NCBI GenBank assembly: GCA_013425375.1
Contig: JACCLH010000051.1
Location: 1 to 33,911, forward strand
Source of the DNA: Microcaldota archaeon
GTDB taxonomy: Archaea; Micrarchaeota; Micrarchaeia; Anstonellales; Bilamarchaeaceae
Reading direction: 5' to 3'
Length of the DNA: 33,911 nt
The notes beneath the pieces were generated by a model that was given only the letters and a program-made list of their open reading frames with translations, was not told the DNA's origin and ran no database searches. A program made the translations under genes and the position numbers. The number at the start of each line of letters is the position of its first letter. The stretch's first letter is position 1. Of this stretch, positions 7,519 through 30,666 are shown piece by piece.

Positions 7519-9030
7519 ATGGCGGAGTCATTGGGCGTGATAATCGCGACAGAGGAATCGCCCTCCACATCGGAATTCTCGTTCGTGGCAAAGGAAAAGA
7601 GCGTGAAGAAGGGCCAGTATGTCCAGGTCAGCCATGGGAAAGGCACCATGTTCGGCTTCGTCTCAGAGGTCTTCAAGTCCAACCGCTACTTCGAGAGGCC
7701 AGAGAGCGTGGCTGACTTTGAGAAAAGCGCAGGCATCTCCTCGCAGTTCCCTTCTGATTCCTGGGAATACGTCATCGGCGCGGTCAAGATACTCGGCGTG
7801 TTCAACAACAGCAGGTTCGAGCGCGCCTTCACTCCTCCATCACCGGGCGCAGCGGTCCATATCGCTGACAACACCATGCTGAGGACCTTCCTCGGCTTTG
7901 AGGACAATGGCCTCCATCTCGGCTCCATAGAGCACCATGACGTGCCTGCCACAGTATCAATGACAAGGTTGCTGCAGAAACATTTCGCGATCCTGGCCAT
8001 GAGCGGCGCGGGCAAAAGTCATCTCGCGAGCGTTCTCCTGGAGGAACTGCTCGAGCGGAAGAAGGAGGACGGCAGGGTGGCTGTGGTGGTGATAGACATA
8101 CACGGCGAATACCTCGGCTTCCTCCACGATCCTGTGTTCGGCCAGAAGACAAGCCTTGTGGACGGCAGCGACATCTGCATCCCGCTCAGGAAAGTTTCCC
8201 CAGAGACAATGATGGAGTGGGTGCCGACCTTGTCAATTCCCCAGCGTGATGTCCTTCGCCATGCGCTTTCAGCCTTGCGTTCCGAGAAGAAAGACAGCGC
8301 AGGCTATGGTTTCAATGAGCTGCTGGAGGCCGTAGAACGGACAGACGTGGCCAAGGACGAGGTCAAGCGCGCCCTCAAGAGGAGCCTTTCCGAACTGAAG
8401 AGATACCATTTCCTATCCCGCAAGAGCGAGAAGCCCAGGCTCCTTTCAGACATAAAGCCAGGCCACATGCTCATCCTGGATTTCAGCTCCATAGATTCCC
8501 TGAGGAAGAAGCAGATATTGGTCTCGCTCATGGCAAGGCGGCTTTTCAGCCTCAGGAAGAAAGGCAAGATCCCCCCGTTCCTCCTGCTGATAGAAGAGGC
8601 GCACAACTTCGCAAGGGAGAAGGCAGAAGAGAGCGAGGCTGTCTCAAGGAGCATAATAGAGACCATCGCAAGGGAGGGACGGAAATTCGGGGCATCGCTC
8701 TGCCTGATAAGCCAGAGGCCTGTCAATCTCAGCACCACCGCCCTTTCGCAATGTAATACCCACGTCATCCTCCGTGTCACCAACCCCAATGACCTGGACC
8801 ACATCCAGATGAGCTCGGAAGGGATAGACGCGAGGGTGGCCAAGAGCATAACCGGCCTGAAGGTCGGCGAGGCCATAATAGTCGGAGAGGCGGTGAATCA
8901 CCCGATATTCGTGAGCGTGCGCGAGCGGAAATCCATGAAAAGGGAGAAGGGCGCGCCGCTCCACCAGCAGGCCATAGACTTCGAGCAGAAAAAAGAGAAA
9001 AAGGAGAAGAACGTGGAAGCGTTCCTCTGA
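7519..9030 (+). CDS. herA: HerA helicase (HAS-barrel plus FtsK/HerA ATPase)
   Basis: N-terminal barrel, Walker A LAMSGAGKSHLASVLLEEL, Walker B FLLLIEEAHNFA, SIIETIAREGRKFGASLCLISQRPVNLS. Confidence 0.85.
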   Translation: MAESLGVIIATEESPSTSEFSFVAKEKSVKKGQYVQVSHGKGTMFGFVSEVFKSNRYFERPESVADFEKSAGISSQFPSDSWEYVIGAVKILGVFNNSRFERAFTPPSPGAAVHIADNTMLRTFLGFEDNGLHLGSIEHHDVPATVSMTRLLQKHFAILAMSGAGKSHLASVLLEELLERKKEDGRVAVVVIDIHGEYLGFLHDPVFGQKTSLVDGSDICIPLRKVSPETMMEWVPTLSIPQRDVLRHALSALRSEKKDSAGYGFNELLEAVERTDVAKDEVKRALKRSLSELKRYHFLSRKSEKPRLLSDIKPGHMLILDFSSIDSLRKKQILVSLMARRLFSLRKKGKIPPFLLLIEEAHNFAREKAEESEAVSRSIIETIAREGRKFGASLCLISQRPVNLSTTALSQCNTHVILRVTNPNDLDHIQMSSEGIDARVAKSITGLKVGEAIIVGEAVNHPIFVSVRERKSMKREKGAPLHQQAIDFEQKKEKKEKNVEAFL

Positions 9031-11673: not shown

Positions 11674-12483
11674 CTACTGCAGCGTCACAGCTATGTTCTC
11701 CTCATCCTTCGACTCGCGCAATAATTCGTCCTGCTCCTTCAGCAGGTCAAGGTACTGCCTCTGCAATGTGGCGAAATCCTGCTCTTCCTCGTCATTGAAG
11801 CGTTTTATCTGCCTTTCCGCGTTCTTGAGCTGTATCCTGGAGTTGAGCGACTGTATCTTCATGAGGTTGTCCCTGAGCTGGGGCACCACCGTCTCGCTCA
11901 CCCAGACGTTGCGGTGGGATACCTCCATCCTCACTTCCTTCTGGGGCGACTCGTCAGCCGGCTCCAGGTTTTTCCCCGAGGCGTCGCATGCGATGCCGCA
12001 GCGCTGCATGAACCTGGCCAGCCGTTTCACTCCGGCCTCATCAAGCGATTCTATCTTCACCGCAGACTCCACGGCCCCTGATGCGAGCGCGCCGAACGTC
12101 TCTTTCCTCTCCTCGGGCTTCATCCTGACGGCCAGCAGCCACAGTTTCGCTATCTCAAGCCGGTTCTCCTGGTTGCTTTTCACTACTGCTCCTCTTTCCT
12201 GGAGCACCTCATAGGGCCTTCCGCCCCTGGCCTTTATGCTCTCCTTTATATCGGCAGGCGAGAAACCTTCCAGGACCTTCGCCAGCTCCTCCAACTTGTT
12301 CTGGTTAGGATAAGTCATCTCTACTCCGGCGGCCCTTGCCTTACCGGCCAGCTCCTCTGCCCCGGCACGCACTGCCGCGAGCTCTTTCTCAGAATCCGAG
12401 CCGAAGACCAGCTTCTTGAACTCAAACTCTGCCTTTTTTTTGTTTAGCTCCATGAGCCTTGCCAGGTCCCTGGCCGTTATTTC
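11674..12483 (-). CDS. Conserved-looking hypothetical protein, C-terminal coiled coil
   Basis: Starts MEITARDLARLMELNKKKAEFEF; overlaps the 3' end of the upstream Lon-domain gene; helical charged C-terminus. Confidence 0.55.
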   Translation of the reverse strand, partial: EITARDLARLMELNKKKAEFEFKKLVFGSDSEKELAAVRAGAEELAGKARAAGVEMTYPNQNKLEELAKVLEGFSPADIKESIKARGGRPYEVLQERGAVVKSNQENRLEIAKLWLLAVRMKPEERKETFGALASGAVESAVKIESLDEAGVKRLARFMQRCGIACDASGKNLEPADESPQKEVRMEVSHRNVWVSETVVPQLRDNLMKIQSLNSRIQLKNAERQIKRFNDEEEQDFATLQRQYLDLLKEQDELLRESKDEENIAVTLQ

Positions 12484-14185
12484 CATGTGATCGCCTTGTG
12501 AGCACAATTACAACGACAATAAATAAAAGCGTTGATATGAGGGCAATCCCTCCGAGGGCGAAAATATCGCCATCCTGCGTTTCCTCCGCCACCGGCTGCC
12601 CAATATCGCCGTTTCCGGTGCCATTTCCGCCATCCATGGCCGGTTCCATGGCCCGGACCATCTCTGCCGTGGCCTCGTCAAGGCCTTTGGCGAACAATGC
12701 GGTCCTGTAGGCTCCGGCACTGTTGTTCTGGCTGTACAGGAAAGCGGCGTGGGACTGGTATATCCGCCCCCAAAGAGAGTCCCGGTCCTCCATCACCAGC
12801 ACGCTCACGTTCTCATAGGCCGCATCCCCGAGGTTCTCGGCCATGTCGCTTTCATGATTCGTTATCACGTAGACCGCTTCGTATGTCGCAGCTCCGTAAT
12901 AGCCTTTTGTGTAGGCATCCTGGGCTATGTTGAGCCTTGAGGCCAGTTCGCTGTCCGTGATGTCCAGCGCCCGCGCCTCATCTATGCCGGCCTTCGCGAT
13001 GGGCTCCCACGCGCTCTCGTTTATAGGAGTGCCGCCTGAAGGAGCTGCGCCAACGAGTCCCTTGGCTACATGGCACCATGCATCCGCGTACATGAGCCCG
13101 TTATATTCGCTATAGCTCTCATCTTTGAGCATCTTATCTTCTATCTTGGCATTGTCTATCTTGTCCTGGGCCCACGCCATCCTGAGGTCAGAGCCCACCA
13201 CCCATTCGAAATTCCTGTCGCTCAAGGCAGGCCTTTTTATGCCGCTGAGGCATATGCCCGCCTCGCCCTTTTTCCTGGGCAGATCCACGTCATCCTTCAG
13301 TATGACCTCTATGGTGGAGATGTCTATGTAGTTGAGGAACGCCTCGTTGGCAGCGCTGAACAGGTATCCGCTGTCCAGGATCTTCTGCTGCCTCTGCGCC
13401 TCGTTGCCGTAGAAATCCCTTACGATATCGGCCTCGTCGCCTCCGCCATCCACGCCAGCGAGCGCCGACCTCTCCAGGTCTACCATGGCAGCGGCCACCG
13501 GCGCAAAAGCCGTAATCCCGGAGTAATCATAGGGTTCAACGTCCGGTATCTCCCTTTTGGCAGCAGCGAGCGGCTCCTGCTCTATGCTTTTGTTGTCCAG
13601 CATGAACCCTGCGACCTCCTCCACGCTCCTGGCCTGCAGCACCTTCATGCCATAGCGCCCTTCAATCTCCTTCAGCAGGAGCATCTCGTATACGTTCTCA
13701 ACAGGAGTGATGAAATAGGACGCCCCCATGGAAGCGGCCCCCCTGGCTTTCTCATACAGCCCGCCCACGGGCCCGACTGCGCCTGATGCGTCCACAGCGC
13801 CGGTGATGACCGCGTCTGTGCGCATGGCCTCCCCCTCAAGGAGGGCATAAGTCATCACAGTCAGCGCAGCCCCTGCGCTCGGCCCTTCTATATAGGACGT
13901 GTCCGGCTGGCCGCCGAAATCCACCAGCACATCGCAATCCCGCTCCTTGTCAGCCATGCCGTATGCATAAGCCACCGCATCCTGCACGGATGCCTGCGCC
14001 ATGAGCCCTGTCCTGGGCCAGACGCTCACATATGTCTGCCCGTAGCCGGGCACCAGCCCCACGGTCACATTGACCAGGCTGCCTGAGTTGTCACCCACTA
14101 TGGCAGGCACATATTGCGATATGCTGCCGGTGCATTCGGCGAATGCCACGCACGAGATGACCAGCAGTAGCAGAAGAGGTCTCAC
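12422..14185 (-). CDS. Membrane-anchored extracellular Lon-type (S16-like, COG1750-like) serine protease
   Basis: GTG start, signal peptide; EGPSAGAALTV...GAVGPVGGLYEKARGA (Ser/Lys dyad spaced 43 residues); C-terminal TM ALGGIALISTLLFIVVVIVL plus basic tail. Confidence 0.8.
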   Translation of the reverse strand: MRPLLLLLVISCVAFAECTGSISQYVPAIVGDNSGSLVNVTVGLVPGYGQTYVSVWPRTGLMAQASVQDAVAYAYGMADKERDCDVLVDFGGQPDTSYIEGPSAGAALTVMTYALLEGEAMRTDAVITGAVDASGAVGPVGGLYEKARGAASMGASYFITPVENVYEMLLLKEIEGRYGMKVLQARSVEEVAGFMLDNKSIEQEPLAAAKREIPDVEPYDYSGITAFAPVAAAMVDLERSALAGVDGGGDEADIVRDFYGNEAQRQQKILDSGYLFSAANEAFLNYIDISTIEVILKDDVDLPRKKGEAGICLSGIKRPALSDRNFEWVVGSDLRMAWAQDKIDNAKIEDKMLKDESYSEYNGLMYADAWCHVAKGLVGAAPSGGTPINESAWEPIAKAGIDEARALDITDSELASRLNIAQDAYTKGYYGAATYEAVYVITNHESDMAENLGDAAYENVSVLVMEDRDSLWGRIYQSHAAFLYSQNNSAGAYRTALFAKGLDEATAEMVRAMEPAMDGGNGTGNGDIGQPVAEETQDGDIFALGGIALISTLLFIVVVIVLTRRSHGNNGQGPGKAHGAKQKKGRV

Positions 14186-16232: not shown

Positions 16233-19200
16233 CTATTGAGTTATGCTGCAGGTTATGTCATAGTTTCGCAGGGGCGTCTGGGTGACGCCGCAGAACTCCG
16301 ATATCTCGCCCAGCGTCCCTATATCTGTTCCCATGCCGCAGTCCACGTTCGGGTCCGTGGGGAAGGCGATAGGGGTGGAGACCGGCATCTGGTGGACGTC
16401 CTTGAAGTAAGTGTACTTGACGCTGAGATCCCCTTCCCCGGCCTGCAGGCAGCATTTGTATGGTTTGGGTATGCCGCCTATCACGTCCATGTAAGTGTCA
16501 GAGTTCAATACGCTCATGGACTCGCTCGGCATGACCTGCTTGGTTCCGTTGGTGTATGTCCTGGTGCAGCTGTAGGTGCCTGGGGTCTCGTTGCACAGCA
16601 CGCAATCCTCTGTGACTGTGTTGTCCGGACATTTTGCCGAGTTCTCATCAAGGCCGTCCGAAAGGACGCATTCGGTGCCGTCATCGCACAGCAGCGCGCT
16701 CACAGGCACGGCACTGGGACCGCACCTGTTGTTCGCCTTGTCGAGGCTGTCGCACAGAACGCACTTCGCTGACCCTGCCACAGTCGCTGGCCCTGCCACA
16801 GCCGCCACCTTGTTGAACATGGCGATGGATGGCGTGGTGGACATCAGCTGCATCGCCTCCTGCAGGGCGCAGAATTTCGCGTTCTTGGATCCCGGGGAGG
16901 ATCTCCTGTCCACAAGGCCCAGGTCCCCGGAGTCTGTGGCTGCCGGACTGTAGATGATGCCTATGACGCCGTTATTCACCAGCTTGTCCTGGCTGCCCAC
17001 TATAGCGCTGAACAGGATCCTGTGCGCTTCCTGGCCGGTCCATGTCGGGTCGCTGTTCTTGACATTAAGCCCCACGACCATCACCGGCTTGCCCCGCGTC
17101 TTGAGCGAAAGCGATGCCATGCCGTAGGATGCGATGTCATCTGCCACTGCCTGGCTCTGGTTCTGCACGCCTGTCTCCCCGGCATAGGCTCCGCTATGGT
17201 CGCTTATCGGGTAGTCGAACGTGATGAGGTCCAGCCTCGCGTTTATGCGCGCGTCACCGGTGATGCTCAGGATGATGTCCCTGAAACTATCATTGCTGGC
17301 CGGGCTGTCCACATGGACCGCAGCGAGGCATCTAGGGCAGAACGCCTTCAAGGTGAGGGTCCGGTTGGCTATCCTCTCCACCTTCTCCGGGTCGGCCTCG
17401 CTGCCGATGTCGTCCACTATCACCGCCACCGCGCCCATGCTGCCGAACAGCCTCTCGAAGTCGTACTGGAGGTAGTTGTCGAACTGAACCTCCACTACAT
17501 TACCCATCTCGTCTAGCGTCGGCTCGATGGCCGGGTTGTCTATGTCCCAGTTGGTGTCATTCGTCATGTTTATCACCGGCATGACCCCGGATTTCAGGTA
17601 GTCTCCCATCCTCTCCTTCAGGATGGTCGCGTCTGGTTCTGTCCTCGGCGAGCCGATGATGCCTATCAATTCCTTGTAATCGCCCACATCGGTTATGCGC
17701 TTGTTGAAACAGGACACGTTGTAGCCCATGTAATCGCATATGTCCTCGTAATCCTTGCTGGTGCCGTTTCCGATGTCCGCAGTCGCTACCGGCAGGTAGA
17801 TGTGGTCTTTGGCCGTTATGCTCTGATACGCCAGCGTGGAGGTCGTGCATGGTTCGCACCAGCCGAACGTCTTCATCTTCGGCATGCCGGTGTCGTCTAT
17901 TAAGCATTTGCCCAGCTTTCCGTCATCCGGCTTTTTTATCAGGTAAACATGGCTGCTGTAGGCGAAATCATAATAGTTGGGAGGCGATGGATACATGGCT
18001 AGGCTCGCCCTGCGTATGTCGCAGCTCTCTGTGCCGGGCGTTGCGCTCATCGTCTGGTCATAGATGTTGCGCTCCCTGAATATCTGGCCAGGTGTTGAAG
18101 CGAGCTGGTAGCTGGATTGGGACTGGACCATACTGTCCCCCAGTCCGTACTCCCAGCCGCTCTCGTAGTTCACCACCCACGGCATGCCTGCCAGCACGGC
18201 GTCCATGGCACGCACATACTTTCCGCAGCCATCGCTGAAGCCCTTGGCAGCGATGCCCTGCTTGACGAACCTGTTGACGAAATACGGCCTGAATGTCTCC
18301 ATGAGACCCTTCCATAGCAAATCAGAGGGATACCGCGGCTTGCATATCTGCAAGTTGTCCCCTGCCTCAAAGCAGCCGGTCTCTATATACTCCAGATTGA
18401 CATCGATGAAATCATCCTCGGTCATGCCGCACGCCTTGTACGCCTCCATCTCTTTCAGGCTCTCCGGCGTGGCCAGCGCATAACCTATGATATCTGTGCC
18501 GTCTGCGCCGCCCCATCTCATGTATTGGCCGTCTATTGAGCCGAGGAAAACCATGCCTCCGATTGGCGGGCCGGAACTCTCTTCTTCAGGCTGCGCGCCC
18601 CACGAAGAGTTCTCTACACGATTCAGCGCCCCCCCAACCTTACAGGGGTCCACAGGAAAGTCAGCCGGAGGGATCATCGTCAGAGGCAAGTCGCACGTAG
18701 AGTTTGGATAGTCGTTCCATGCAGTGTCATTCAGAGGATAATCGTTCCAATCAGGGCTATACACGCCCTCCTGCCAGTTCATATTACTGACGCCATTGAT
18801 CATATCCGTGTAACCCGCGCGCTTGGCCGAGCCCTCTGGTCCGGTCAGGATGGCGCCCGGCAGACTTATGCTCTTGTTCTCATCTGGGATGTTTTTATAT
18901 ATCTCCGTGAAATTGTCCCATACCCGGAAGAGCTGGTTGTCGCTCGCACCATCCTGGTCCCCGTCCTCCTCCAGAATATCAGTATATGACAGGAATGGGT
19001 TGTTGTTTTGAAGCCCCGTGAGGAAATTGTTGCCGGTGATAAAATTCGAGTTCATGCGCGCCACCCTGATAGGCACAGGCGCATAGGATATCTTGGGTGC
19101 GCCACTTCCGGAGGTCACCACATTGGTGGTGGGTGCGCAATAAACGACTCTCAGACCGTTCTGGTCCTCGACGTAATTGCAGTCGCTCGCGACCTCCTTC

Positions 19201-20357
19201 TCTTCGCCGGCGGGGCCTGCGGCCAGCAGCACGCCCCTGCTGTATACCGAGTTGTCGCATGTGCCTGAGAAGCAGTCATTGCTGGACATGTCGCATTCGA
19301 ATGGCGCCCTTGTGGTCTCGGAGGGGGTCAGGCCGTATATGTAGTCGGAGTATGCTATGGAGAGCCACTTCCTGTAATAAGCCTCATCCATCTTCTTGTA
19401 GATGCCTGTGGTATTGTCCACGTAACCTGAACCACCAAATACATAGTTCGCGCCATAGTCCGTGACATACCAAAACACGTCTTTGACAAGCCTTGCCTGG
19501 TAGGTGAACTTGTAATTGGACTTGTCCGGCTCTATGGCCTGATAGTCCCCTGATGCACTGCTTTTGAAGTTCCCTGAACTGACCCCGTTAAATTCGTACG
19601 ACAGCTTGCCAACCTTGTCTGTGAACCCGAAAGGAGTACCCTTGCCCGGCGAACCTGCCGTGTCATCTATGCAGTTCTTCTCGATGCCTGTGTATGGCGC
19701 ATACTGCCCGTTCTTTGCGGTGAGGTAGTTCATGTACCTGTCCACCATGGTTGCCGGGTCCCTGGTGCCAGCAGCCAGGTTGAGGCTGCAGTAGCGGTCC
19801 GATATCGGGAAGAAGTACCTGTACTGGTCATATTCGTCGAACGATCCCCCCACGCCAATCCTGAACACGTTTATCTGCGACTTGGAGCTCTTCATTACCT
19901 GCTTCAGGTTGGCATCCATCGGCAGGAACCGGCACTGGGACTTGTAGAACTGCAATGCCACGCCCTCCTGGTTCAGGTCCACCGGCACATCTCCGGCCGC
20001 GCTGTCTATTCCTGTGAAGCCCGGCATAGGCCTTGGCTTGAACGCGAAATCGCCGCATATCATGGCAGTGCAGTTAGGTTCCACGCAGGACACGAGCTGG
20101 TCGTCAGTGCATATGGGCAGCATCTGATAGTTGCCACCTATGGACACATTGCAGCCGCTCTGGGCGTTGCAGGATACAGCCTTGTCGAAATACTCCGGGT
20201 GCTCGCTGTAATCCGTGGTGTTGTAAAGCACGCAGCCAGACGGGTTCTGCATTGTGGCGTTGGGTCTCAGGCAGCAGCCGAAGCTCTGGGGCGGCGACAG
20301 GCACCCTGCCGCTATCATCGCGATGACTATCAGGACCAACGGAAGCGTGTGTTTCAT
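16233..20357 (-). CDS. Giant (1374 aa) Cys-rich extracellular lipoprotein, last paralog-operon gene
   Basis: MKHTLPLVLIVIAMIAAGC lipobox; many Cys and N-x-S/T; start overlaps upstream stop (TGATG). Confidence 0.8.
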   Translation of the reverse strand: MKHTLPLVLIVIAMIAAGCLSPPQSFGCCLRPNATMQNPSGCVLYNTTDYSEHPEYFDKAVSCNAQSGCNVSIGGNYQMLPICTDDQLVSCVEPNCTAMICGDFAFKPRPMPGFTGIDSAAGDVPVDLNQEGVALQFYKSQCRFLPMDANLKQVMKSSKSQINVFRIGVGGSFDEYDQYRYFFPISDRYCSLNLAAGTRDPATMVDRYMNYLTAKNGQYAPYTGIEKNCIDDTAGSPGKGTPFGFTDKVGKLSYEFNGVSSGNFKSSASGDYQAIEPDKSNYKFTYQARLVKDVFWYVTDYGANYVFGGSGYVDNTTGIYKKMDEAYYRKWLSIAYSDYIYGLTPSETTRAPFECDMSSNDCFSGTCDNSVYSRGVLLAAGPAGEEKEVASDCNYVEDQNGLRVVYCAPTTNVVTSGSGAPKISYAPVPIRVARMNSNFITGNNFLTGLQNNNPFLSYTDILEEDGDQDGASDNQLFRVWDNFTEIYKNIPDENKSISLPGAILTGPEGSAKRAGYTDMINGVSNMNWQEGVYSPDWNDYPLNDTAWNDYPNSTCDLPLTMIPPADFPVDPCKVGGALNRVENSSWGAQPEEESSGPPIGGMVFLGSIDGQYMRWGGADGTDIIGYALATPESLKEMEAYKACGMTEDDFIDVNLEYIETGCFEAGDNLQICKPRYPSDLLWKGLMETFRPYFVNRFVKQGIAAKGFSDGCGKYVRAMDAVLAGMPWVVNYESGWEYGLGDSMVQSQSSYQLASTPGQIFRERNIYDQTMSATPGTESCDIRRASLAMYPSPPNYYDFAYSSHVYLIKKPDDGKLGKCLIDDTGMPKMKTFGWCEPCTTSTLAYQSITAKDHIYLPVATADIGNGTSKDYEDICDYMGYNVSCFNKRITDVGDYKELIGIIGSPRTEPDATILKERMGDYLKSGVMPVINMTNDTNWDIDNPAIEPTLDEMGNVVEVQFDNYLQYDFERLFGSMGAVAVIVDDIGSEADPEKVERIANRTLTLKAFCPRCLAAVHVDSPASNDSFRDIILSITGDARINARLDLITFDYPISDHSGAYAGETGVQNQSQAVADDIASYGMASLSLKTRGKPVMVVGLNVKNSDPTWTGQEAHRILFSAIVGSQDKLVNNGVIGIIYSPAATDSGDLGLVDRRSSPGSKNAKFCALQEAMQLMSTTPSIAMFNKVAAVAGPATVAGSAKCVLCDSLDKANNRCGPSAVPVSALLCDDGTECVLSDGLDENSAKCPDNTVTEDCVLCNETPGTYSCTRTYTNGTKQVMPSESMSVLNSDTYMDVIGGIPKPYKCCLQAGEGDLSVKYTYFKDVHQMPVSTPIAFPTDPNVDCGMGTDIGTLGEISEFCGVTQTPLRNYDITCSITQ

Positions 20358-21382
20358 CAAATCACTTTGGATACCATCTTGGTGAGCTCATAGGTGTCTC
20401 CTCCCAGGATGGTCATCATGTACCTCACAAACACCAGCGTCAGGAAGAAAGCGATGAGCGGATGCAGCATGAGGCCTACATAATAGTCTGCGAGATTGTT
20501 CTTTATGTCTGACAGGCTGAGGCCGGAGCTGCTCCCGAGGCCGCCTGCCTCCACGGTCTTCATGATTGTCGCGCTGGTGCTCATGGTGGCGTAGCAGTAT
20601 GGATTGGCCATGATCTGCTGGGGCGCAGGCGGGTCTGGCGGGGCAGGCACGAATCCAGGGTCCAGCAGGACAAAGAACACCGGGAATATGAAATACATGC
20701 CTATGCCGAGCGATATCATGAGGGCGCCAGGTCCCCTTGTGAAGAAGAAGCTCCTCAGCAGTATGCCCATGGGTATGAATATGTCAAGCATGTTGAGGCG
20801 CAGGTACTCGATGAGCTGGGACTGGGCGTTGAGCGATATGAGCATGTTGGTGGCCATGTTGTTCACCACCCTGTAGCTCTCGGTCTCCTTGAAGAGCGAG
20901 CTTGACCACCCGCCGTCCCAGACCGGGAACCCGAAGATGCTGATCTTCACGTTCAGCGCGTTGAACTTCCAGGCTATGCCCGGGTCGGAGTGTATCTTGC
21001 TCTGCGCATCCGCCAGCTCCTGCGCCTTGCTCTGCAGCCTGCACCTGATGGCGCTGTAGGCGTCGTCCATGATGCCGTCGCCGGCCTTTATCTGGATGCT
21101 GTCGCCTCCGCACTGCACTTTCCCTTTTATGAACTGGCCGGCCACCGCCATGGCGCTGCCCACGATGAACACCAGGAATATGGCTATGAACGCAGTGGAG
21201 ACCGCCTGAAGCATCTCTGCCTTGGCATGGGTCTCCAGCTCATGGATGGAGAATGCCCTGCCGAACATCAGCACGATGGTATATATGATGATGGCTGTCA
21301 CCACAGCGACCAGGGCGAGCGGGAGCAGGCTGTCCCATGCCCCGTTCATGAACATATGTATCGACAGCAGCAAATCCATCAT
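20357..21382 (-). CDS. Polytopic membrane protein, paralog 6 of 6
   Basis: LMFGRAFSIHELETHAKAEMLQ; IFIPMGILLRSFFFTRGPGALMISLGIGMYFIFP; C-terminus GGDTYELTKMVSKVI. Confidence 0.8.
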   Translation of the reverse strand: MMDLLLSIHMFMNGAWDSLLPLALVAVVTAIIIYTIVLMFGRAFSIHELETHAKAEMLQAVSTAFIAIFLVFIVGSAMAVAGQFIKGKVQCGGDSIQIKAGDGIMDDAYSAIRCRLQSKAQELADAQSKIHSDPGIAWKFNALNVKISIFGFPVWDGGWSSSLFKETESYRVVNNMATNMLISLNAQSQLIEYLRLNMLDIFIPMGILLRSFFFTRGPGALMISLGIGMYFIFPVFFVLLDPGFVPAPPDPPAPQQIMANPYCYATMSTSATIMKTVEAGGLGSSSGLSLSDIKNNLADYYVGLMLHPLIAFFLTLVFVRYMMTILGGDTYELTKMVSKVI

Positions 21383-21384
21383 AT

Positions 21385-22446
21385 CTACACCATTTGCGTC
21401 AGTTTGCTTAAATCTATCTCGTCTCCGTAGAGGCGCGCCACATAGGACACGCTCGCCAGGGTCGCCAGCATCGCCAGCGTGGGGAAGAATATCCCGGCTA
21501 TGAATGCCGTGGCGGCCCATGATATCGCCCCGACCACCTCATCATTGCCACTAAAGTATAAAGCGCGGACGTATTCCGCGCCACCGGTGCTGCCGCCCAG
21601 CTCGGAACCCGTCTCTGACTCAGGGAATATCTTCTCGTTGTAGCTTGCCACATCCATCGGATGGCCTGCCGCATTCTGCGGAGCAATCAGCAGGGCTCCG
21701 TGCATCAGCCCGAATATGGCCAGCATCAGCGGGTACACTATCAGGAACGACAGCGCCATGGCGAACATCAGCGAGCCGAAGGGCCGCATGTAAGGCATGG
21801 AGCGCAGGAACACGCCCAGCGGCAGGAACAGGAACACGAAGCCGCGGTAGACGAACAGGAGTATGAACAGGAAGTTCATCGCGCTGAAATACGACATTAT
21901 GGAAGAGTTGAAGGCGACGTTGAGCGCGCCCATGGTCGCGCCGTATCCGCCCAGGGGCTGGATGCTGTCTGAGCCCTGGCCGAAGAAGCAGCCTATGCCT
22001 ATGCCGCCCCCTATCTGGCCCTCGCACATGAGCGCGTTGAAATAGGATATCACCGTGTAGCCCTCAAGGTGGTATCTCACGACCGTGACCGCGTTGTGGG
22101 CGTAAACCGCGGTATCGGCAAGGTAGCGCTGGGCCGAATCATAGATGTTGCCGGAGCCGTCTGTTATGTCGAAGATGCCGCCCACCTCCCCCATGTCCAC
22201 AGAGCAGAAGGTGCTCACCACGAGCGGTATGAACAGGACGGTCGCCGCTGATACGAACAGCTGGACCAGCTCGGTCTTGGACCACAGGGTGAGCTTGGGG
22301 TTGGAAAGCGCCCTGCCGAGCATGAATGAAATGGCTATCAGCATCGCGGTTATGAATGTGGCATATGCCACGAGCGGCAGTATGGTGCCTGTCATGAACG
22401 GACTGAACCCGGCACCGCTGCCACACATCATGTTTAGTTCTACCAT
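21385..22446 (-). CDS. Polytopic membrane protein, paralog 5 of 6
   Basis: FMLGRALSNPKLTLWSKTELVQL; FLPLGVFLRSMPYMRPFGSLMFAMALSFLIVYP; C-terminus YGDEIDLSKLTQMV. Confidence 0.8.
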   Translation of the reverse strand: MVELNMMCGSGAGFSPFMTGTILPLVAYATFITAMLIAISFMLGRALSNPKLTLWSKTELVQLFVSAATVLFIPLVVSTFCSVDMGEVGGIFDITDGSGNIYDSAQRYLADTAVYAHNAVTVVRYHLEGYTVISYFNALMCEGQIGGGIGIGCFFGQGSDSIQPLGGYGATMGALNVAFNSSIMSYFSAMNFLFILLFVYRGFVFLFLPLGVFLRSMPYMRPFGSLMFAMALSFLIVYPLMLAIFGLMHGALLIAPQNAAGHPMDVASYNEKIFPESETGSELGGSTGGAEYVRALYFSGNDEVVGAISWAATAFIAGIFFPTLAMLATLASVSYVARLYGDEIDLSKLTQMV

Positions 22447-23501
22447 CAAATAAACCTCGACACTGCGCTCACGTCCACCTCTGCTCCTGCGATGGATGTC
22501 AGCGCCCTCAGGCTGGCCACCATCAGCAGCAATGCCAGTATGGGCCCCATGGTCGCCTCTATGAGCATGGCGTAGAGATAGCTTCTCAGGGCGTTTCTCA
22601 TGTTCAGGTATGACGTCACAGCCTTGCCTTCGTTGGTGGATGTGTCCACGCTGGCGGCCAGCCCGTAGGTCTTCACCGCCGTGGATATGCCTTCAGAGTC
22701 GCCTATCACCCCGGTGTCCATGCCAGTGCATTCCATTATGGTGGCTTCGGCAGGCACCGGAGGATATTCCGGAGTCTTGCCTTCCTCTGCGAGGGTTGCC
22801 TGGTCAGCCAGGAACGTCTCGGCCAGCATGCTGTTGAATATGATGCCTGCAGGCAGCATGATGTGCATGGAGACTGCCAGCGCTATCATGAACCCTCCGG
22901 CTCCCCTGGTCATCTTGAACGTCCTCAGCAGTATGCCCAGGGGAAGTATGAAGTTGAGGGCGTAGTTCATGGATATCTGCACGAGCCTCTCCATGGACGC
23001 TATCTCGGCTATCGCGAAGCCGACTATGCCTCCGGCCATGGACAGCGGGGCGGCCAGCATGCTGTAGCCGCCGCATCCGCTGACGCTGTACCCTATGCCG
23101 AATATGTTGCACTGGCCCCCCTTGGAAGCCTCTATTGAGATTGACTGGTCCATCGCCGCAAGGCCGCCCAGGGCGCTTGAGACATTCGCTCTCCAGTCAG
23201 CGAGTATGATCACCGAGGCGTTCTGCATGGTGCCCGCATCTCCAGCGAATGCCATATTGGTCGATACGGAGTTCAGGATGCCGTCGCCGCCCCACAGGGC
23301 CGCTATCATGACCATGAGCGCGATGAGCTGGAAGAACTCCTCCTTGGCGAGTATCTGGAGCTCGCTGATGCTGAGCCCGAAGCCGATGATGTATATCCCT
23401 GCGAGGAGTATGGCCGAGGTGGCCATCGCCATGGCTGCCACCGACTGCCATGCGGCGAACGCCAGCGGCACCAGCAGCAGTAACACCATCAGCCTTTTCA
23501 T
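22446..23501 (-). CDS. Polytopic membrane protein, paralog 4 of 6
   Basis: IIGFGLSISELQILAKEEFFQL; ILPLGILLRTFKMTRGAGGFMIALAVSMHIMLP; C-terminus AGAEVDVSAVSRFI. Confidence 0.8.
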   Translation of the reverse strand: MKRLMVLLLLVPLAFAAWQSVAAMAMATSAILLAGIYIIGFGLSISELQILAKEEFFQLIALMVMIAALWGGDGILNSVSTNMAFAGDAGTMQNASVIILADWRANVSSALGGLAAMDQSISIEASKGGQCNIFGIGYSVSGCGGYSMLAAPLSMAGGIVGFAIAEIASMERLVQISMNYALNFILPLGILLRTFKMTRGAGGFMIALAVSMHIMLPAGIIFNSMLAETFLADQATLAEEGKTPEYPPVPAEATIMECTGMDTGVIGDSEGISTAVKTYGLAASVDTSTNEGKAVTSYLNMRNALRSYLYAMLIEATMGPILALLLMVASLRALTSIAGAEVDVSAVSRFI

Positions 23502-25615
23502 CAGAACACCTTGGATAATCCTGGTATCTCTATGTCCCCTCCGAGCAGGTCGGACAGGCCTTTTATGAATATTATCGTTGCCATGATGTTGAACAGCGGC
23601 AGCAGGTATGCAGGTATCATGAGTTTCGCTATGTTCTGCACAGGTGACAGGCCGACCAGCCCGGTATCGCCTATCTGCGTGAATGCGCTGGGGTCAGCGA
23701 CCGGAGTGGTGTCAGAGGGCTTGCAGATGTCGTTGCACTGGGTGTTCAGGGGCGGGTTGTAGACATAGCGTTCCTCGGTGAACGTGCACATCTCGCACGA
23801 CTGGAACGGCACGACCGCGCGATATTGCGGCGGGCAGTTGTCGTAGCTGCACGAGCCATTAGCGTATTCATCCGGCAGGTTGGAGTAGGTCAGCCTTTTG
23901 TATATCTCGCACGCGCTACACTTGCCGTCGGCGAAGGCATCCCCGGCCAGCGCTGCGAGCGCGCTCCACTGCACCACGCATCCGTCCATGCAGTCCGTGC
24001 ATTCGGCCGGACAGTAGTCAGGCACTATCGCTCCGCTGCCTGTTATCCTGCACTCCGGCGGGCACGCCGCGCAGATGTCGTCGCACCTGCCGCTCTGCGG
24101 CACGATATACCTGCACGATTGGTATGCATCCTCGCTCCCGGGGCAGCTCTGGGCATCTTCGCAGCGCTTCTTTATCTCCTTGCAGCCCTCGAACTTATTG
24201 CTGCATGTCTTCTCAGGCACCCATGTGTCGTCCCCCCGTATCACCATCCTGCAGTCAGGAGCCGAGTTCACGCACTTGTGCTCAGGGTCCGGATTGCCAT
24301 CCTTATCCACGTCGCAGTTGGAGCGCAATGGCGGCACCACCTTGCAGTCAGCAGGGCAGTTGCTGTCCTGGGCTGGGTCCACCACCTTCACCGTGCGTAT
24401 GACCTTGCACTCCGCAGGCACAGCCGCGCATTTCTCCGGCGTGCCGGCGCTGACGTTGTTGCACAGCGGCATGGAAGGATAAGGCAGCTCGCGGCATGCC
24501 ACTGGGCATTCTGTGGCACTGATGGGCGTATAGCATGACGTTATCACCCTGCCATTATAAACGCCCGCGGTTGCCACAGCGCTCGGCACAGTGCCATTCA
24601 TCAGCCCCTGGGCCAGGGCTTTGTCGCTCTCATTGAACTGGTTATATACCTCCTGGGTGTTGTTAAGCTTGTTATCTGCATCCACATACGCCGCGGGCGC
24701 GGTCATCTTGCATTCATCAGGGCAGTCGCTGCCCGCCCCGTTGCTCCCGGCCTTATCACCGTTCAGCACGTTGTCCAGCGTCACCCAGTCGAATATGTAC
24801 ATGGCGGGGAAGAAGAACATCATGCCTGCGGCAATGGCTATGAGCAGTCCGCCCAGCTTCCTGGTGGGGAAGAAGCAGCGGGCCACAACCCCTAGAGCCA
24901 TTATCACCGGTCCCATCCTGAATGCGATGGCGTTCACGAAGAACTTCTGCGCTTCCATGGACGCGATGAGGTTGGTGTAGTGGTCGAATATTATCATGTA
25001 CATGTCGCTCTTCAGTATGTACTGGCCGCCGACGGTTATGCTATTGCCCATCTGGGCGCAGAATATGGTGAGGCAGTTGAGGCCTATCCTCCTCCCTACC
25101 ATGCCTGCCGCGAACATGTTGTCCTTGAGGATGCCCTTGGCATTGGACTCCGCAGTTTCTATGTAGGAATTGAGATATGCGTTGGTCACTCCCTGGAGGC
25201 ATCCCACCGCATTTGCTCCCTGGCCGTAGCATACAGCAGTTTCCGCGGTGTTTAGGCCGCTCCCCTGCACTATGGCGAGCACCACCATCTCTATGAACAC
25301 CAGCGTGACTATGAGCAGGCCCACGATTATGGCGTTGGTTATTATCTGGACCAGCTCGGTGCCTGCCCACGCCTTCATCTCAGGCATCTCAAGGCCTATG
25401 CCGATGACATATGCTATGGCGACCAGTATCACGGATATCATCAGCGCCATGGCAGAGAGCAGCTGCCAGTTACCGGCAATATCAATGATGGAGAGCAGCT
25501 GCCAGTTCCTGCCTATCTCCATGGTGAAGGACGAGGTCTGGCCCCCGAACTGCTTCCCAGCATCATCTGCGATGCAGAGCGAAGCCAGCAAAAGCAATAT
25601 GAATATCCTCTTCAT
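23501..25615 (-). CDS. Polytopic membrane protein, paralog 3 of 6, with large Cys-rich insertion
   Basis: VIGIGLEMPEMKAWAGTELVQI; MALGVVARCFFPTRKLGGLLIAIAAGMMFFFP; about 34 Cys in insert; C-terminus LLGGDIEIPGLSKVF. Confidence 0.8.
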   Translation of the reverse strand: MKRIFILLLLASLCIADDAGKQFGGQTSSFTMEIGRNWQLLSIIDIAGNWQLLSAMALMISVILVAIAYVIGIGLEMPEMKAWAGTELVQIITNAIIVGLLIVTLVFIEMVVLAIVQGSGLNTAETAVCYGQGANAVGCLQGVTNAYLNSYIETAESNAKGILKDNMFAAGMVGRRIGLNCLTIFCAQMGNSITVGGQYILKSDMYMIIFDHYTNLIASMEAQKFFVNAIAFRMGPVIMALGVVARCFFPTRKLGGLLIAIAAGMMFFFPAMYIFDWVTLDNVLNGDKAGSNGAGSDCPDECKMTAPAAYVDADNKLNNTQEVYNQFNESDKALAQGLMNGTVPSAVATAGVYNGRVITSCYTPISATECPVACRELPYPSMPLCNNVSAGTPEKCAAVPAECKVIRTVKVVDPAQDSNCPADCKVVPPLRSNCDVDKDGNPDPEHKCVNSAPDCRMVIRGDDTWVPEKTCSNKFEGCKEIKKRCEDAQSCPGSEDAYQSCRYIVPQSGRCDDICAACPPECRITGSGAIVPDYCPAECTDCMDGCVVQWSALAALAGDAFADGKCSACEIYKRLTYSNLPDEYANGSCSYDNCPPQYRAVVPFQSCEMCTFTEERYVYNPPLNTQCNDICKPSDTTPVADPSAFTQIGDTGLVGLSPVQNIAKLMIPAYLLPLFNIMATIIFIKGLSDLLGGDIEIPGLSKVF

Positions 25616-26613
25616 CCAAGCACCCTCAGGCCCTTATGCACCGCTCCGAGGAACGTTATAAGGACCGCTATCGTCAGGTTAGGCAGGAAGAACGCCACCG
25701 GCAGCAGCCTTGAGACGTTCCAGAAGCTGTCCGGATTCGTGCATGTCTCCTTGGCGCTGTCGGCATCGCCGCAGTCGTAGTTGTCCACCACCGGGTCGCA
25801 CGCGGCCAGGGCGAACTTCTCGCAGTCCTCCTTGGTGCCCACCGCGTCATACATGGCGAAGCTGAACACGTACATGAAAGGCACCAGCACATAAAGCCCC
25901 AGCGACAGCGCTATCAGTATATTGCCCATCTGCCTTGTCGGTATGAATATGCGCAGGATGAATGCGGAAGGAAGTATCCACTGTATGACGCTGGTGGTGA
26001 CGAACTCAAGCAGGAGCTTCTGCATGCTCACGCTCACGAGGGCAGGTATGATGAACGAGTTCAGTACCATGTCGTACTGGTTGGCGATTATCTTCCTGTA
26101 GGAGCCGGCGCTGGAGGTGTAGGTGTTCATGAGCGGCCACTGGATGCTGAAGGCCCATGTGGAATCCATAATCATCCCGATATTGTTCTTTATGTAGCTC
26201 GCTGCCATCTTCTGGGCGTCTGCCTGCACCGCTCCGGCATAGCAGATGGCGGTGCTGTTCATGCCTTTGTCAGGGGCGTAGCAGCCCGTGGGCAGGTTGC
26301 CCATGTTCTGGAACACCGATGAGTAGAACATGTCGCCCAGGCCGCATGACATCAGGACAATGCCGCTGAACGCCGCCAGCATGAGCACAGAGAATGCGAG
26401 GTGGTACGCCTCGTCCTTGGCGAACACGATATAGTTGGCATTGCTCAGGGCCGTGCCTGCGATGTAGGCCGCGGCGACCACCATCACGACGAACATCATC
26501 GCCAGCAGGATGTTGGTGCCCTCCTCGCTGAGTATCACGCCCGTGGCATCTGCTGTGCACGAGCCTGCATGGACCGCGGTGATGGCCAGCAGCAGGAATA
26601 GGATGGCTTTCAT
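25612..26613 (-). CDS. Polytopic membrane protein, paralog 2 of 6
   Basis: Signal peptide MKAILFLLLAITAVHA; AGTALSNANYIVFAKDEAYHL; ILPSAFILRIFIPTRQMGNILIALSLGLYVLVP; ATGA overlaps at both ends. Confidence 0.8.
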   Translation of the reverse strand: MKAILFLLLAITAVHAGSCTADATGVILSEEGTNILLAMMFVVMVVAAAYIAGTALSNANYIVFAKDEAYHLAFSVLMLAAFSGIVLMSCGLGDMFYSSVFQNMGNLPTGCYAPDKGMNSTAICYAGAVQADAQKMAASYIKNNIGMIMDSTWAFSIQWPLMNTYTSSAGSYRKIIANQYDMVLNSFIIPALVSVSMQKLLLEFVTTSVIQWILPSAFILRIFIPTRQMGNILIALSLGLYVLVPFMYVFSFAMYDAVGTKEDCEKFALAACDPVVDNYDCGDADSAKETCTNPDSFWNVSRLLPVAFFLPNLTIAVLITFLGAVHKGLRVLG

Positions 26614-27812
26614 ATGAGCCTCTGTATGCCGGCCATGTAGGCCTCGCCTCCAAGGGCGCTGGAAAGGCTGCGGGCAGCCACGATGGTGACAGTGGCAATC
26701 ACTATGAAGTCTATGTAACTGAGGAGTATGAGGTTGTTCAGGTCCGTGAGGAACGGGTGCACCTGGCCATACACGCCCATCGCGTACGAGTCCCCGCCGC
26801 CGAGGCTCAGCTCCCAGAGTACGACCACCGTGGTCATCGCTATCTGGAATACCGTGAGGATGTACGGATAGACAACATACATGACCGCGTTCCAGCAGAT
26901 GGCGAACAGGGCACCTCCAATTGGGATGATCAGCAACAGCGGTGAGCAGACCATGACCGCGAACAGCGGGTCGGTGGCGCCGAGCAGGAGGCGTATCGGT
27001 ACGCTCTCGCACAACGGTTCCACGGCCACCATGCCCCAGGGGTTGGCATTGAGCTCTGAGAGGTCTTTTATGCTGGGGTCAGGCAGGTCGGGCCCCAGCG
27101 TCCTGTTGAGCTCGCCCGCCAGCACCACAGAGAACGGGAAGATGACTATGGCCGCCAGCGACACCGCTATCAGCGTGTTGCCGCTCTTCCTGGTGAACGG
27201 GATGAGGCGCAGGACCATGGCGAGCGGAAGTATGACCGGCGGCACCACCGCCTTCAGGAACAGGAGGAGGAGCCGCATCCCTTCCGAGAGGTAAATAATG
27301 TTGGTCAGTCCCTGCGTCGCTGCGTTGAGCGGGTTCATCATGAGGCCTACCCCTCCGAGCGGGTTGGTGCTATAGGTGATGGAGACGTACCACAGCGGTA
27401 TGCTTGTGTATGGCGCGTAGGTCGCAGCGGCGCGTATCTTGGTCGCTGCCTGTATTATATATGAGTAGGATGTGTCGTACTTGCCTATCAGGCCGTCTAT
27501 CACGCCCACGGCCGCGCCGACAGGGTCGGATTTGCCGGTCAGCGTCACGGTGACCCCTTCGGTGCCTATGAAGAACGCTGTGATTATCACGACCAGTATG
27601 ACCCCTGCCAGCAGCTCCCGTATCTCGGTTTTGGTCCATGCCTCCAGCCTGGGGTCTGATATGGTCCTGGAGAGCATGCCCATGAGCGCGAGGAAGATGG
27701 CGACTATGACCGCGACCAGCGGCACCGCGAACGTGAGGTCAAGCTTCTGCGGGGCTGCGAATGCGGCCGGTAGCATAAGGAATAGGAACAGCCATGCGGA
27801 CCACAGTTGCAT
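26610..27812 (-). CDS. Polytopic membrane protein, paralog 1 of 6 (operon-leading gene)
   Basis: Signal peptide; MGMLSRTISDPRLEAWTKTEIREL; ILPLAMVLRLIPFTRKSGNTLIAVSLAAIVIFP; C-terminus SALGGEAYMAGIQRLI. Confidence 0.8.
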   Translation of the reverse strand: MQLWSAWLFLFLMLPAAFAAPQKLDLTFAVPLVAVIVAIFLALMGMLSRTISDPRLEAWTKTEIRELLAGVILVVIITAFFIGTEGVTVTLTGKSDPVGAAVGVIDGLIGKYDTSYSYIIQAATKIRAAATYAPYTSIPLWYVSITYSTNPLGGVGLMMNPLNAATQGLTNIIYLSEGMRLLLLFLKAVVPPVILPLAMVLRLIPFTRKSGNTLIAVSLAAIVIFPFSVVLAGELNRTLGPDLPDPSIKDLSELNANPWGMVAVEPLCESVPIRLLLGATDPLFAVMVCSPLLLIIPIGGALFAICWNAVMYVVYPYILTVFQIAMTTVVVLWELSLGGGDSYAMGVYGQVHPFLTDLNNLILLSYIDFIVIATVTIVAARSLSSALGGEAYMAGIQRLI

Positions 27813-27861: not shown

Positions 27862-30666
27862 ATGAGGCCTGTCGTCACATTCCTGGGCATAGCGTCGCTT
27901 CTCATCCTCCTCGGAACCTGCTTCGCCGTAGAGCCATGCGTGGCATGCCAGGAGTTCAAGGGCGTGCCGCAGGCCCAACTGAATGTAGAGAAGAATGACG
28001 TCACCCACGTCCTGGAGATAGGAGCGTATTATGAGAATCTCACGACCAGCCCGATTCGCCAGAACATAGCGAATACCACCATCATCGTGGAAGTCATGAA
28101 CCTCAAGACCAATTACAAATGGATATACAGGACATACACAAACGAAGAGGGCAAGGCAACGTTCAATTTCACAGACAATGTCCAGGGTGACAACTGCCTG
28201 AAGATGACTGTCCTGTACTGCCCGTTCTGCAAACCAGACGACCCGGTGTGCGGGTTCATGGACTGCCTTAACTACTCGGGCATGAGCAACTCGAGCGGCT
28301 ACTATTTAAACGCGCTGGCCGGGTTACCCAGCGCGGATTCCATACCCTTGGCCAGCGGTGCTGCTGTCCCCCCTGAGCTTAACGCCGGGAAATATGTCGC
28401 CCAGCTTGAACGAGTGCCTTTCTGTCCGCCTCCACCCCCGGTCACTGCGACTCCGGGCATGTGCCTTCCGTTGCTCGTGATATTCTCCCTGCTTTCCGGA
28501 GCCCTCTACCTCACCGGCAGGAACCCGTTCACAGGGTTCAACATAGGCGGAGCGAGGGTAGGCAAGCACATACAGTACCAGGCCAGGGGAAGAGGTTTCT
28601 CGCTGGCTTTGGCAACTGCTGCGACCAGCTTCGCCCAGACAGCTGTGAGCGTAGGGAAGGCCGCGGCTGAAGGTGGCTTTAAGGCGGTAGTTAAACAGGA
28701 GGTGCAGGCAGCCGAGAACCGTTTCATCGGTGGCGGTTTCGTGAAAGCTGCCGCGGGCGCCGCTGCCCTGGGAGGCGCACTGGGTAGCGCACCGACAAAG
28801 GGCGCTGACGGCAAGCCGCTGACATTCTCAGCACGCATGGGAGCCGTGACACACCACATGGAGGCGAGGATAAGCGGCACGGGCCTTGGAGGAGAAAAAG
28901 GCGGCCAGCAGACCACAGCGAAGAGAGGGACAGAAGCAGGCATCATATCTGTGGGCGGCCCGCGCGGCTCTGAGATCATGGGCAAGAGCGGCATACTCAC
29001 CGTGGCCGGCATCGGCAAGCTGACGATGTTCGTTTTCAGCCAGACCACCATAGGCAGGACGGTGGATGGCATGGTGTCGATGTTCCAGCCATTTGGCCAG
29101 GGGCGCGGCCTTTTCGAGATGGCGTTCGTAAGCAGGGGCGAGAGGGTCGCCAACGACACGAAGGTGCTTTCCGACATGATGGCTGCGGGCGGAGTGGGCT
29201 ACAAGGTGCCCGTACCAGGCGGAGTCGCGACTGTCACAGGCATAAAGCAGGAAGGGAATAACACATTGCTCACGCTTGCGCCTGAGAAAGGTTCTGACGC
29301 CAAGGGCCCTGTTACGCTCACAATAAACTCTCAAGGCAAAATCACGACCATAGATATGACAATCACTGATGCCGCAGGCAAGCCCCAGATGGTCAGTATT
29401 ACGGCCGACCCCAAAGGCAACCTAATCGTCTCGACAATAAGCGAGAAAGGCGATCTCACGCCGCTTAACCCGAGCAACAAGGAAGACAAGAATCTCATCG
29501 CATTGGCCTCCAATGCATGCGTCACCGCGCTTCCTGCAGGCATGAGGGTGGGCAGCGACGCCTCAACCCTTGTGAGCAATGCCAATCAGGTCATGTCTGA
29601 CGTGAAGAATATACAAGCATCAATCGGGATAGAGGCCAGAAAGGACGTTAGCCAGATAGAAAGCGATGTGAATGGAAAACTCAGCAGCAAGGTGGTCGAC
29701 AAGGCGAAGGAAGATGCTGCTGGCAGAGTTCTGGCGGATGCAGACATGCCAAACCAGCAAAAGCCCGCACAGGTCGTGGTCGCTGTGCATGAAGCGGCTG
29801 ACGATTCAAGATTGGCGAAGCCTGGTACGTTCGTCAGAGATATTGTTGCGAGCACCGAGGTGAAGCCAGAATATAGGGGTCAGGCCACGACCGCTTTAGC
29901 AAACGTCATAGCATTCCACAATCCGCACGAGCTCGCTAACATGCCACCAGAGCAGCTGAAAGCCGAGGTGAAAGCCCAAATAGAAAGTAACCTGCGTGCG
30001 AACCCATCCGAGTACAGGGCTCCATCCGCGATAAGCGCCGAGGCAGACCGCATCGTGAACAATATGAACTTCAAGCCCGTGGCTGGGGCTGTTCAAAATG
30101 GCGTAACAGAACTGAACGCAGAATTGAAGGGTGCAGGCCTTGACCCTGCCAAGTTCTCCAACGTGACCATATCCCAGCTGCGCCATATCTCCGATACTGG
30201 TGCTGTCATAGATGGAGGTAGTTCTGCTACCATAGTGATGCTGGACCCGAACGCGACCATGAATAACTCCAACATATCCAACGAAGTGAAATGCCTGCTA
30301 GCAGAGCGCGAGCACACCCTTAACACGCTGAACGCGGCCGGTAACATGGGCGAGGCTCTCAAAAACGGAAATGTAGCGGCTGCAGCCAGTTTGGGCTACC
30401 GCGCTGTCCAGGAGAACGCCCGCAGCACTGAGGCGAGGATATCAGCCATTGGCGGTAGCCCTGAGATGCAGGCTGCCGCAGGCCCCCAGGTGTCAAGGGC
30501 GTCAAACGAACTAATGGCAGGAGTCCAGGACCATTTCCTGGCTAGCAGGGCGGAAAATCCCCAGCGTGCAGCGCAGCTTGAAGCCGAAGGCAACAAGCAC
30601 TTCAAGGACGCCAACGGTATCATGCAGCGCATCATGGAAGAGAAGAAGAAAGAAGGGAAGACTTAA
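27862..30666 (+). CDS. 934-aa signal-peptide/TM protein: Cys-rich ectodomain, Pro-rich linker, TM, long predicted cytosolic/helical region
   Basis: MRPVVTFLGIASLLILLGTCFA; CPPPPPVTATPGMCLPLLVIFSLLSGALYLTG; long Ala/Gly-rich helical C-terminal region. The 5' part of the supplied ORF (27472-27861) is antisense to paralog 1 and excluded. Confidence 0.8.
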   Translation: MRPVVTFLGIASLLILLGTCFAVEPCVACQEFKGVPQAQLNVEKNDVTHVLEIGAYYENLTTSPIRQNIANTTIIVEVMNLKTNYKWIYRTYTNEEGKATFNFTDNVQGDNCLKMTVLYCPFCKPDDPVCGFMDCLNYSGMSNSSGYYLNALAGLPSADSIPLASGAAVPPELNAGKYVAQLERVPFCPPPPPVTATPGMCLPLLVIFSLLSGALYLTGRNPFTGFNIGGARVGKHIQYQARGRGFSLALATAATSFAQTAVSVGKAAAEGGFKAVVKQEVQAAENRFIGGGFVKAAAGAAALGGALGSAPTKGADGKPLTFSARMGAVTHHMEARISGTGLGGEKGGQQTTAKRGTEAGIISVGGPRGSEIMGKSGILTVAGIGKLTMFVFSQTTIGRTVDGMVSMFQPFGQGRGLFEMAFVSRGERVANDTKVLSDMMAAGGVGYKVPVPGGVATVTGIKQEGNNTLLTLAPEKGSDAKGPVTLTINSQGKITTIDMTITDAAGKPQMVSITADPKGNLIVSTISEKGDLTPLNPSNKEDKNLIALASNACVTALPAGMRVGSDASTLVSNANQVMSDVKNIQASIGIEARKDVSQIESDVNGKLSSKVVDKAKEDAAGRVLADADMPNQQKPAQVVVAVHEAADDSRLAKPGTFVRDIVASTEVKPEYRGQATTALANVIAFHNPHELANMPPEQLKAEVKAQIESNLRANPSEYRAPSAISAEADRIVNNMNFKPVAGAVQNGVTELNAELKGAGLDPAKFSNVTISQLRHISDTGAVIDGGSSATIVMLDPNATMNNSNISNEVKCLLAEREHTLNTLNAAGNMGEALKNGNVAAAASLGYRAVQENARSTEARISAIGGSPEMQAAAGPQVSRASNELMAGVQDHFLASRAENPQRAAQLEAEGNKHFKDANGIMQRIMEEKKKEGKT

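Follow-up and report, generated by a model that had tools for sequence, protein, structure and literature searches.

It is an open question how reduced-genome DPANN archaea draw from partner cells the things that they require. A locus with a bearing on it lies in a Microcaldota archaeon (assembly GCA_013425375.1, contig JACCLH010000051.1, positions 1 to 33,911; hereafter the window, 33,911 nucleotides). Here, six consecutive genes (A to F) encode polytopic membrane proteins and are followed directly by a gene for a giant lipoprotein (G). What does such a cluster do? A preliminary description, made from the DNA letters alone, had proposed an undescribed envelope or secretion apparatus whose subunits recall VirB6/TrbL or CedA channels. 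We consider it likely that the six proteins (the six-pack) form the membrane channel of an apparatus that is chromosomal and inherited vertically, resembles a type IV secretion system (T4SS), is of the Ced or Ted kind and is driven by a VirB4/CedB-like ATPase. The results computed here are the paralogy of the six, their fixed number and order, their operon linkage to and co-occurrence with the ATPase, the TrbC/VirB2-like pilins in the operon and a barrel of glycoside hydrolase clan A (GH-A) type in G. A VirB4-linked operon near-universal in Micrarchaeota is a concrete candidate for a machine that serves exchange with partner cells. Neither A to G nor the divergent gene U matched any family in curated Pfam and NCBIfam, and such an operon is easily overlooked because its main membrane family has no match there. 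A sequence search of the PDB gave nothing useful for the F profile (Ninjurin, E 0.2) and no match for the G profile.

The six proteins are paralogs of one another, as first supposed. Searches with single sequences (phmmer) connect all six, with the best pairs at 1e-13 to 1e-15, and an all-versus-all comparison of ortholog profiles with hhalign gave 99.3-99.9% in all 15 pairs of A to F (E 1e-20 to 1e-37). Three signatures had been read as shared, the third by most copies, and two are present in all six. Motif 1 (GxAxSxxELxxWAKxE) is recognisable in 6/6 in a MAFFT alignment, with A beginning SRT instead of G, and motif 2 (LPxGxxLRxFxxTRxxGxLLIA) is likewise present in all six, being substituted in C (ALGVVAR) and E (MPYMRPFG). 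The C-terminal GG[DE] tail (motif 3, LGGD/E) is exact in A, C and F only; it is altered in D (AGAE) and E (YGDE), and B has no tail.

The arrangement extends far beyond the window. Homologs of D were found in 58/59 genomes, all of the window's order, and a profile of F orthologs detected the family in 107 of the 116 genomes sampled from the phylum Micrarchaeota. A scan of genome contigs with the single protein D gave no match; one with a profile of C orthologs did. Six-copy synteny is conserved among these related archaea, close relatives included. A six-frame count gave exactly six members in 58/62 fetched loci (53 with none at the edge and 5 with one at the edge), the four exceptions being the start of a second six-pack, a split gene, a cluster cut by a contig end and a VirB4-centred locus with no member nearby. 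Within the window's order clusters run A-B-C-D-E-F, then G where the fetched stretch reaches that far, and within the genus the flanking genes of the cluster are kept as well. On a tree of 135 proteins from 22 clusters (FastTree) the label for position in the operon changed 10 times, where 6 changes are the fewest possible and shuffled labels need 88.6 on average, and position 5 formed one clade. Because the position label sorts so cleanly, the six lineages seem to have diverged early and stayed ordered; judged from their sequences, they appear to be older than both the split of the sampled families and the duplication of the cluster. The tree, together with the collinearity described below, confirms the amplification and divergence suggested at the outset.

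A duplicated cluster is present in the window's own genome, which is a draft of 1.10 Mb. In this genome a six-member profile located a second six-pack, on contig 22, as well as a lone family member on contig 12. The second six-pack is collinear with the first: A, B, C, E and F each have their strongest cross-cluster profile match in the corresponding protein (A2, B2, C2, E2 and F2), with D giving a near tie between D2 and E2. Another locus (L038, genome G007, contig 61) has a window-type six-pack near the start of a second, and the same contig holds two U-like genes and a 1673-aa G.

Distant families of the class have the six-pack within one operon. The order is a VirB2/TrbC-like pilin, the six-pack and then, on the same strand, two VirB4-N-domain-like proteins with two transmembrane (TM) segments (260-280 aa), a VirB4/CedB-like ATPase (~510 aa), a coiled-coil protein of ~245 aa and a 2-TM protein of ~800 aa. 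This one-operon version is found on a single contig of 952,257 bp. In every one of the 22 single-operon loci containing members, the ATPase follows the last of them by 1.6-3.9 kb, on the same strand and after the two 2-TM proteins. It carries Walker A, Walker B and QNP motifs and matches CedB at 1e-20 (6.5e-27 for a second copy), as well as VirB4_plasma, TraC and the TraG P-loop domain. A tblastn search of the ATPase against plasmids gave, among the matches listed, distant TraC-type matches only (<30% identity). The CedB and VirB4 models also matched one N-domain protein weakly through their N-terminal part (E 0.007-0.06), and hhalign of the 2-TM N-domain proteins against R388 VirB3/VirB4 and the pNOB8 ATPases was negative. 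Across the 116 genomes, 106 contained both the family and a strong VirB4-like match, one the family only (the ATPase match there is merely weak), none the ATPase only and nine neither (Fisher 1.3e-12, uncorrected for phylogeny or shared ancestry). Co-occurrence with a VirB4/HerA-like ATPase was thus found, in that a VirB4/CedB-like ATPase tracks the family and shares its operon in other families. We regard the evidence for the family, its number, its order and its linkage to the ATPase as strong.

In the window genome the block is dispersed. An ATPase, an N-domain protein and proteins of 267 aa and 851 aa lie together on contig 50. The solitary family member on contig 12 belongs to a small module of its own (G000, L032:2448-8339), with a 2-TM N-domain protein, a second VirB4-like ATPase and a homologous ~237-aa partner protein. 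This module, a minimal Ced-like arrangement of which relatives have one too, is split by a TnpB-type gene. The ~245-aa ATPase-linked protein (L123:4020-4823 and homologs) ends in a region that resembles a winged helix and matches EAP30/Vps36 and PCI weakly. At one locus (L155, genome G071) the ATPase block has no adjoining family members, though the family to which that genome belongs (f12) normally has them. The window also encodes a HerA-like ATPase, which has a weak HAS-barrel match, matches HerA and CedD models and was not found in the other fetched loci. For that reason, and because the VirB4-like genes are the better fit, it was rejected as a candidate engine.

Small 2-TM proteins encoded upstream of the six-pack match TrbC/VirB2 in 11/23 cases (best 9.7e-8) and T4SS_pilin in 13/23 (best 1.6e-5), which provides moderate evidence that they are pilins. 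A pilin-like gene precedes the six-pack in 14/22 loci, several of the remaining loci being cut at the edge, and in the window genome pilin-like proteins are found on contig 24. Moreover, the pilin profile appears to resemble the N-terminus of the family: the comparison gave 88.8% for C, 41% for position 2 of another family, 35% for the pooled family and <20% for the others, with controls at most 0.3%, and hidden Markov model matches between pilin and the N-terminal TM1-TM2 of the family range from 2e-7 to 0.03. The CedA1 pilin is likewise reported to be related to the CedA N-terminus (PMC9905601). In the second six-pack, B (contig 22, L033:2039-3604; 521 aa) consists of two tandem pilin-like hairpins fused in frame to the family domain; in the other second-type clusters examined, B stands alone and unfused.

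An AlphaFold2 model of F (predicted local distance difference test 80.5) runs in the order TM1, motif 1, TM2, a Cys-bearing outside domain, a long TM3 helix, motif 2, TM4, a variable Cys-bearing outside loop, TM5 and motif 3. In 41 F orthologs the motif-2 loop has a net charge of +2.0 and no Cys, and both predicted outside loops have a negative net charge and contain almost all of the loop Cys, which confirms the Cys-containing loop described earlier. We infer, with moderate confidence, that each paralog is a five-TM protein with its N-terminus outside and its C-terminus inside. Motifs 1, 2 and 3 would then all be cytosolic, on the side of the ATPase, with the Cys loops facing outward. C, the most conserved of the six, has a Cys-rich outside insertion of ~350 aa before its last TM, i.e. 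in the second outside loop.

Lipoprotein G has a lipobox, AAGC, at Cys20. In a model of 1200 of its residues (predicted TM-score 0.75), roughly residues 910-1176 form a TIM barrel of GH-A type, which Foldseek matched with probability 1.00 to GH10, GH2 and GH5 enzymes and a beta-1,4-galactanase. There were 253 PDB matches at E<=0.001, and those listed were glycosidases or Kemp eliminases that have a glycosidase as their scaffold. The residue at the end of beta-7, where GH-A enzymes usually have a catalytic Glu (the strand was assigned by motif and not by superposition), is Gly in the window's G and its near relatives, mostly Asp (with some other residues) in distant orthologs and Glu in 1/25. 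The barrel is probably a glycan-binding pseudo-enzyme and a surface component, an assignment of moderate strength. Among the fetched loci, G orthologs are confined to the window's order. U is predicted to have a signal peptide, a ~180-aa outside domain, one TM and a long Ala-rich region that is presumably cytoplasmic. It is kept beside the six-pack, and two further genomes have U-like genes next to clusters of the second type or of other types.

How might these parts work together? By its genomic context, and by an apparent similarity of pilin and N-terminal hairpin that parallels that of CedA1 and CedA (PMC9905601), the family would be VirB6-like in its working; we do not place it in the VirB6/TrbL family. 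The cytosolic motifs 1-3 may be the docking sites of the ATPase and of the N-domain proteins that anchor in the membrane beside it, and each paralog, present once, would have its own set place in a hetero-oligomeric ring of six positions lying above the ATPase. We infer such a ring because the six lineages have been kept separate, ordered and constant in number since early in the phylum; with its six ordered paralogs so strictly kept, the family offers a striking example of a probable heteromeric ring that evolution has fixed. Within the window's order the six-pack was duplicated; the window copy has G and is flanked by U, and the ATPase block is on another contig. The barrel of the lipid-anchored G probably binds glycans on a partner cell, and the apparatus could carry out contact-dependent transfer between the micrarchaeon and that partner. 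Judged from the ATPase sequence, DNA would be the favoured substrate, as CedB and other VirB4s are the models to which the ATPase comes closest. More tentatively, and with more doubt than belief, the channel may be an obligate hetero-hexamer in which each protomer of a hexameric VirB4-like ATPase is matched by one paralog. It would have become fixed early in Micrarchaeota and would exchange DNA or proteins with a host archaeon. If so, the duplicated six-packs would be two machines of different specificity, the window's having a pseudo-glycosidase as receptor.

The features of the window are listed in Table 1. Coordinates and minus strand of the cluster were correct on re-check; the preliminary description had overlooked U, the genome's other six-pack and the ATPase block on a separate contig. 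The stop/start overlaps reported for its genes hold at five junctions, as ATGA at A/B and B/C and TGATG at C/D, D/E and F/G, but not at E/F, where there is a 2-nt gap. For E the ATG at 22446 is a more likely start than the TTG at 22449. The protein with a Lon domain is kept next to the cluster within the genus, and the BKACE gene (E 5.7e-93) is unexpected for so small a genome.

Table 1. Features of the window (positions in the 33,911-nucleotide stretch; alternative starts separated by a slash).
Feature	Coordinates	Strand	Description
A	26610..27812	-	Position-1 paralog, 400 aa; polytopic, with signal peptide
B	25612..26613	-	Position-2 paralog, 333 aa
C	23501..25615	-	Position-3 paralog, 704 aa, 40 Cys
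D	22446..23501	-	Position-4 paralog, 351 aa
E	21385..22446/22449	-	Position-5 paralog, 353/354 aa
F	20357..21382	-	Position-6 paralog, 341 aa
G	16233..20357/20360	-	Cys-rich giant lipoprotein, 1374/1375 aa, 47 Cys; directly after F
U	27862..30666	+	934 aa; divergent partner, faces A
Lon-domain protein	12422..14185	-	Secreted membrane-anchored protein with Lon (S16) protease domain
HerA-like ATPase	7519..9030	+	HerA-like ATPase
BKACE	3891..4793	+	Beta-keto acid cleavage enzyme (BKACE) gene

Several results weigh against a channel of the Ced or Ted kind. PF04610 (TrbL/VirB6) gave no match in the genome, in the window proteins or in 56 diverse members, and hhalign of the family against eight plasmid VirB6 proteins gave at most 5.4%, in a test of low power in which R388-type VirB6 against VirB2 fails as well. 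Foldseek of the F model returned nothing significant, R388 TrwI/VirB6 coming fifth (E 1.2, TM 0.21-0.24), and the CedA model NF041796 matched one of the 56 members at E 0.15. The comparison with VirB6/TrbL or CedA that was originally drawn is thus borne out by the genomic context, namely the ATPase and the pilins, but homology was not demonstrated by PF04610, hhalign or Foldseek. In addition, the tree was built by a fast method and has many weak branches, the window contains no pilin gene, and the ATPase block of the window genome lies on a different contig from the window cluster. Lastly, neither a relaxase nor a coupling protein (VirD4) was noticed in the fetched operons, the genomes not having been searched for them.

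This last point would suit a machine with the same VirB4-type engine that injects proteins, instead of DNA, into an archaeal partner. A giant lipoprotein with a glycosidase-type barrel also suits host contact, and the same role has been proposed for nanohaloarchaeal giant proteins bearing VirB4/TraG (PMC10266531). However, the ATPase is closest to CedB and conjugative VirB4 models, and neither an effector gene nor a secretion signal was identified, so that we consider effector delivery rather unlikely. An envelope scaffold or pilus-assembly platform, in which the ATPase would drive assembly of a surface appendage or adhesion structure without transit of any macromolecule, would account for the VirB2-like pilins in the operon, the large Cys-rich surface protein and the pilin-family fusion. 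It is improbable nonetheless: the ATPase is of the VirB4/HerA and not the PilB/GspE class, and six conserved membrane paralogs would seem to exceed the known needs of a platform. The missing direct match to a VirB6 profile would fit a solute transporter, or an unrelated membrane complex, next to VirB4 by coincidence. Against this very unlikely account stand the operon linkage and co-occurrence of the ATPase over many families and the apparent resemblance of the family N-terminus to TrbC-like pilins. VirB4-like ATPases are typical of mobile conjugative elements of the archaeal plasmid type, and the solo module contains a TnpB-type gene. A recent spread of such an element was nevertheless rejected on distribution and tree and is the least probable origin of all: the family occurs in 58/59 genomes of the order and 107/116 of the phylum, its positions are old lineages, its flanks are conserved in the genus, and the membrane proteins of pNOB8 gave no match to it by hhalign. 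The channel of a Ced- or Ted-like apparatus is the reading that we prefer. The six proteins are related, no characterised family outside secretion was matched and the cluster is found in close relatives, as the preliminary description would lead one to expect.

The cluster is real and conserved and is probably a variant of the T4SS/Ced kind, apparently undescribed in the literature. Our search on Micrarchaeota with VirB4 or type IV secretion, outside which lay subscription papers and preprints, gave no account of a six-paralog system, and the paper on 'Ca. Mancarchaeum acidiphilum' Mia14 lists type IV pili, Sec and Tat with VirB absent from the text (PMC5498576). Among symbionts, the nanohaloarchaeal SPEARE-like giant proteins (PMC10266531) also belong to DPANN and join a VirB4-like ATPase to a giant surface protein proposed for host contact, but there the ATPase domain is inside the giant protein and no six-pack is described. 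The T4SS of Patescibacteria (PMC12102498) is similarly phylum-wide, VirB4-based, found in episymbionts and thought to serve host interaction; unlike the present system, it is bacterial, belongs to the MPF-FATA type and in many genomes has VirB6 homologs that can be recognised. In Rickettsia, VirB6 occurs in up to five copies (rvhB6a-e of the Rickettsiales rvh T4SS; PMC2653234). These are, in architecture only, a parallel case of multiple divergent polytopic channel proteins with variable extended flanks, whereas they carry PF04610, number five and not six and belong to a Gram-negative T4SS.

The closest comparisons are with Ced and Ted, the archaeal T4SS-like systems of DNA exchange (PMC9905601, PMC11868833). 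Ted (Thermoproteales: TedA, TedB, TedC) likewise places a VirB6-like channel, a VirB4-like ATPase and a VirB2-like pilin within one locus, although a single channel gene is described and it is without G or U. Ced (Sulfolobales: CedA, CedA1, CedA2, CedB, CedD, CedE) imports and exports DNA, and CedA/CedE paralogs and a divided VirB4 N-domain have been reported for it (PMC9905601, PMC11868833). The present system, from another phylum, differs from Ced in having six membrane paralogs in fixed order against one or two, an N-domain-like part encoded as separate 2-TM genes (usually two), additional conserved proteins of ~245 aa and ~800 aa and no clear sequence match to CedA. What it has in common with Ced is a CedB/VirB4-like ATPase, a membrane protein of five to seven TM segments and a small 2-TM pilin; as in Ced, this pilin may be related to the N-terminal part of the membrane protein.

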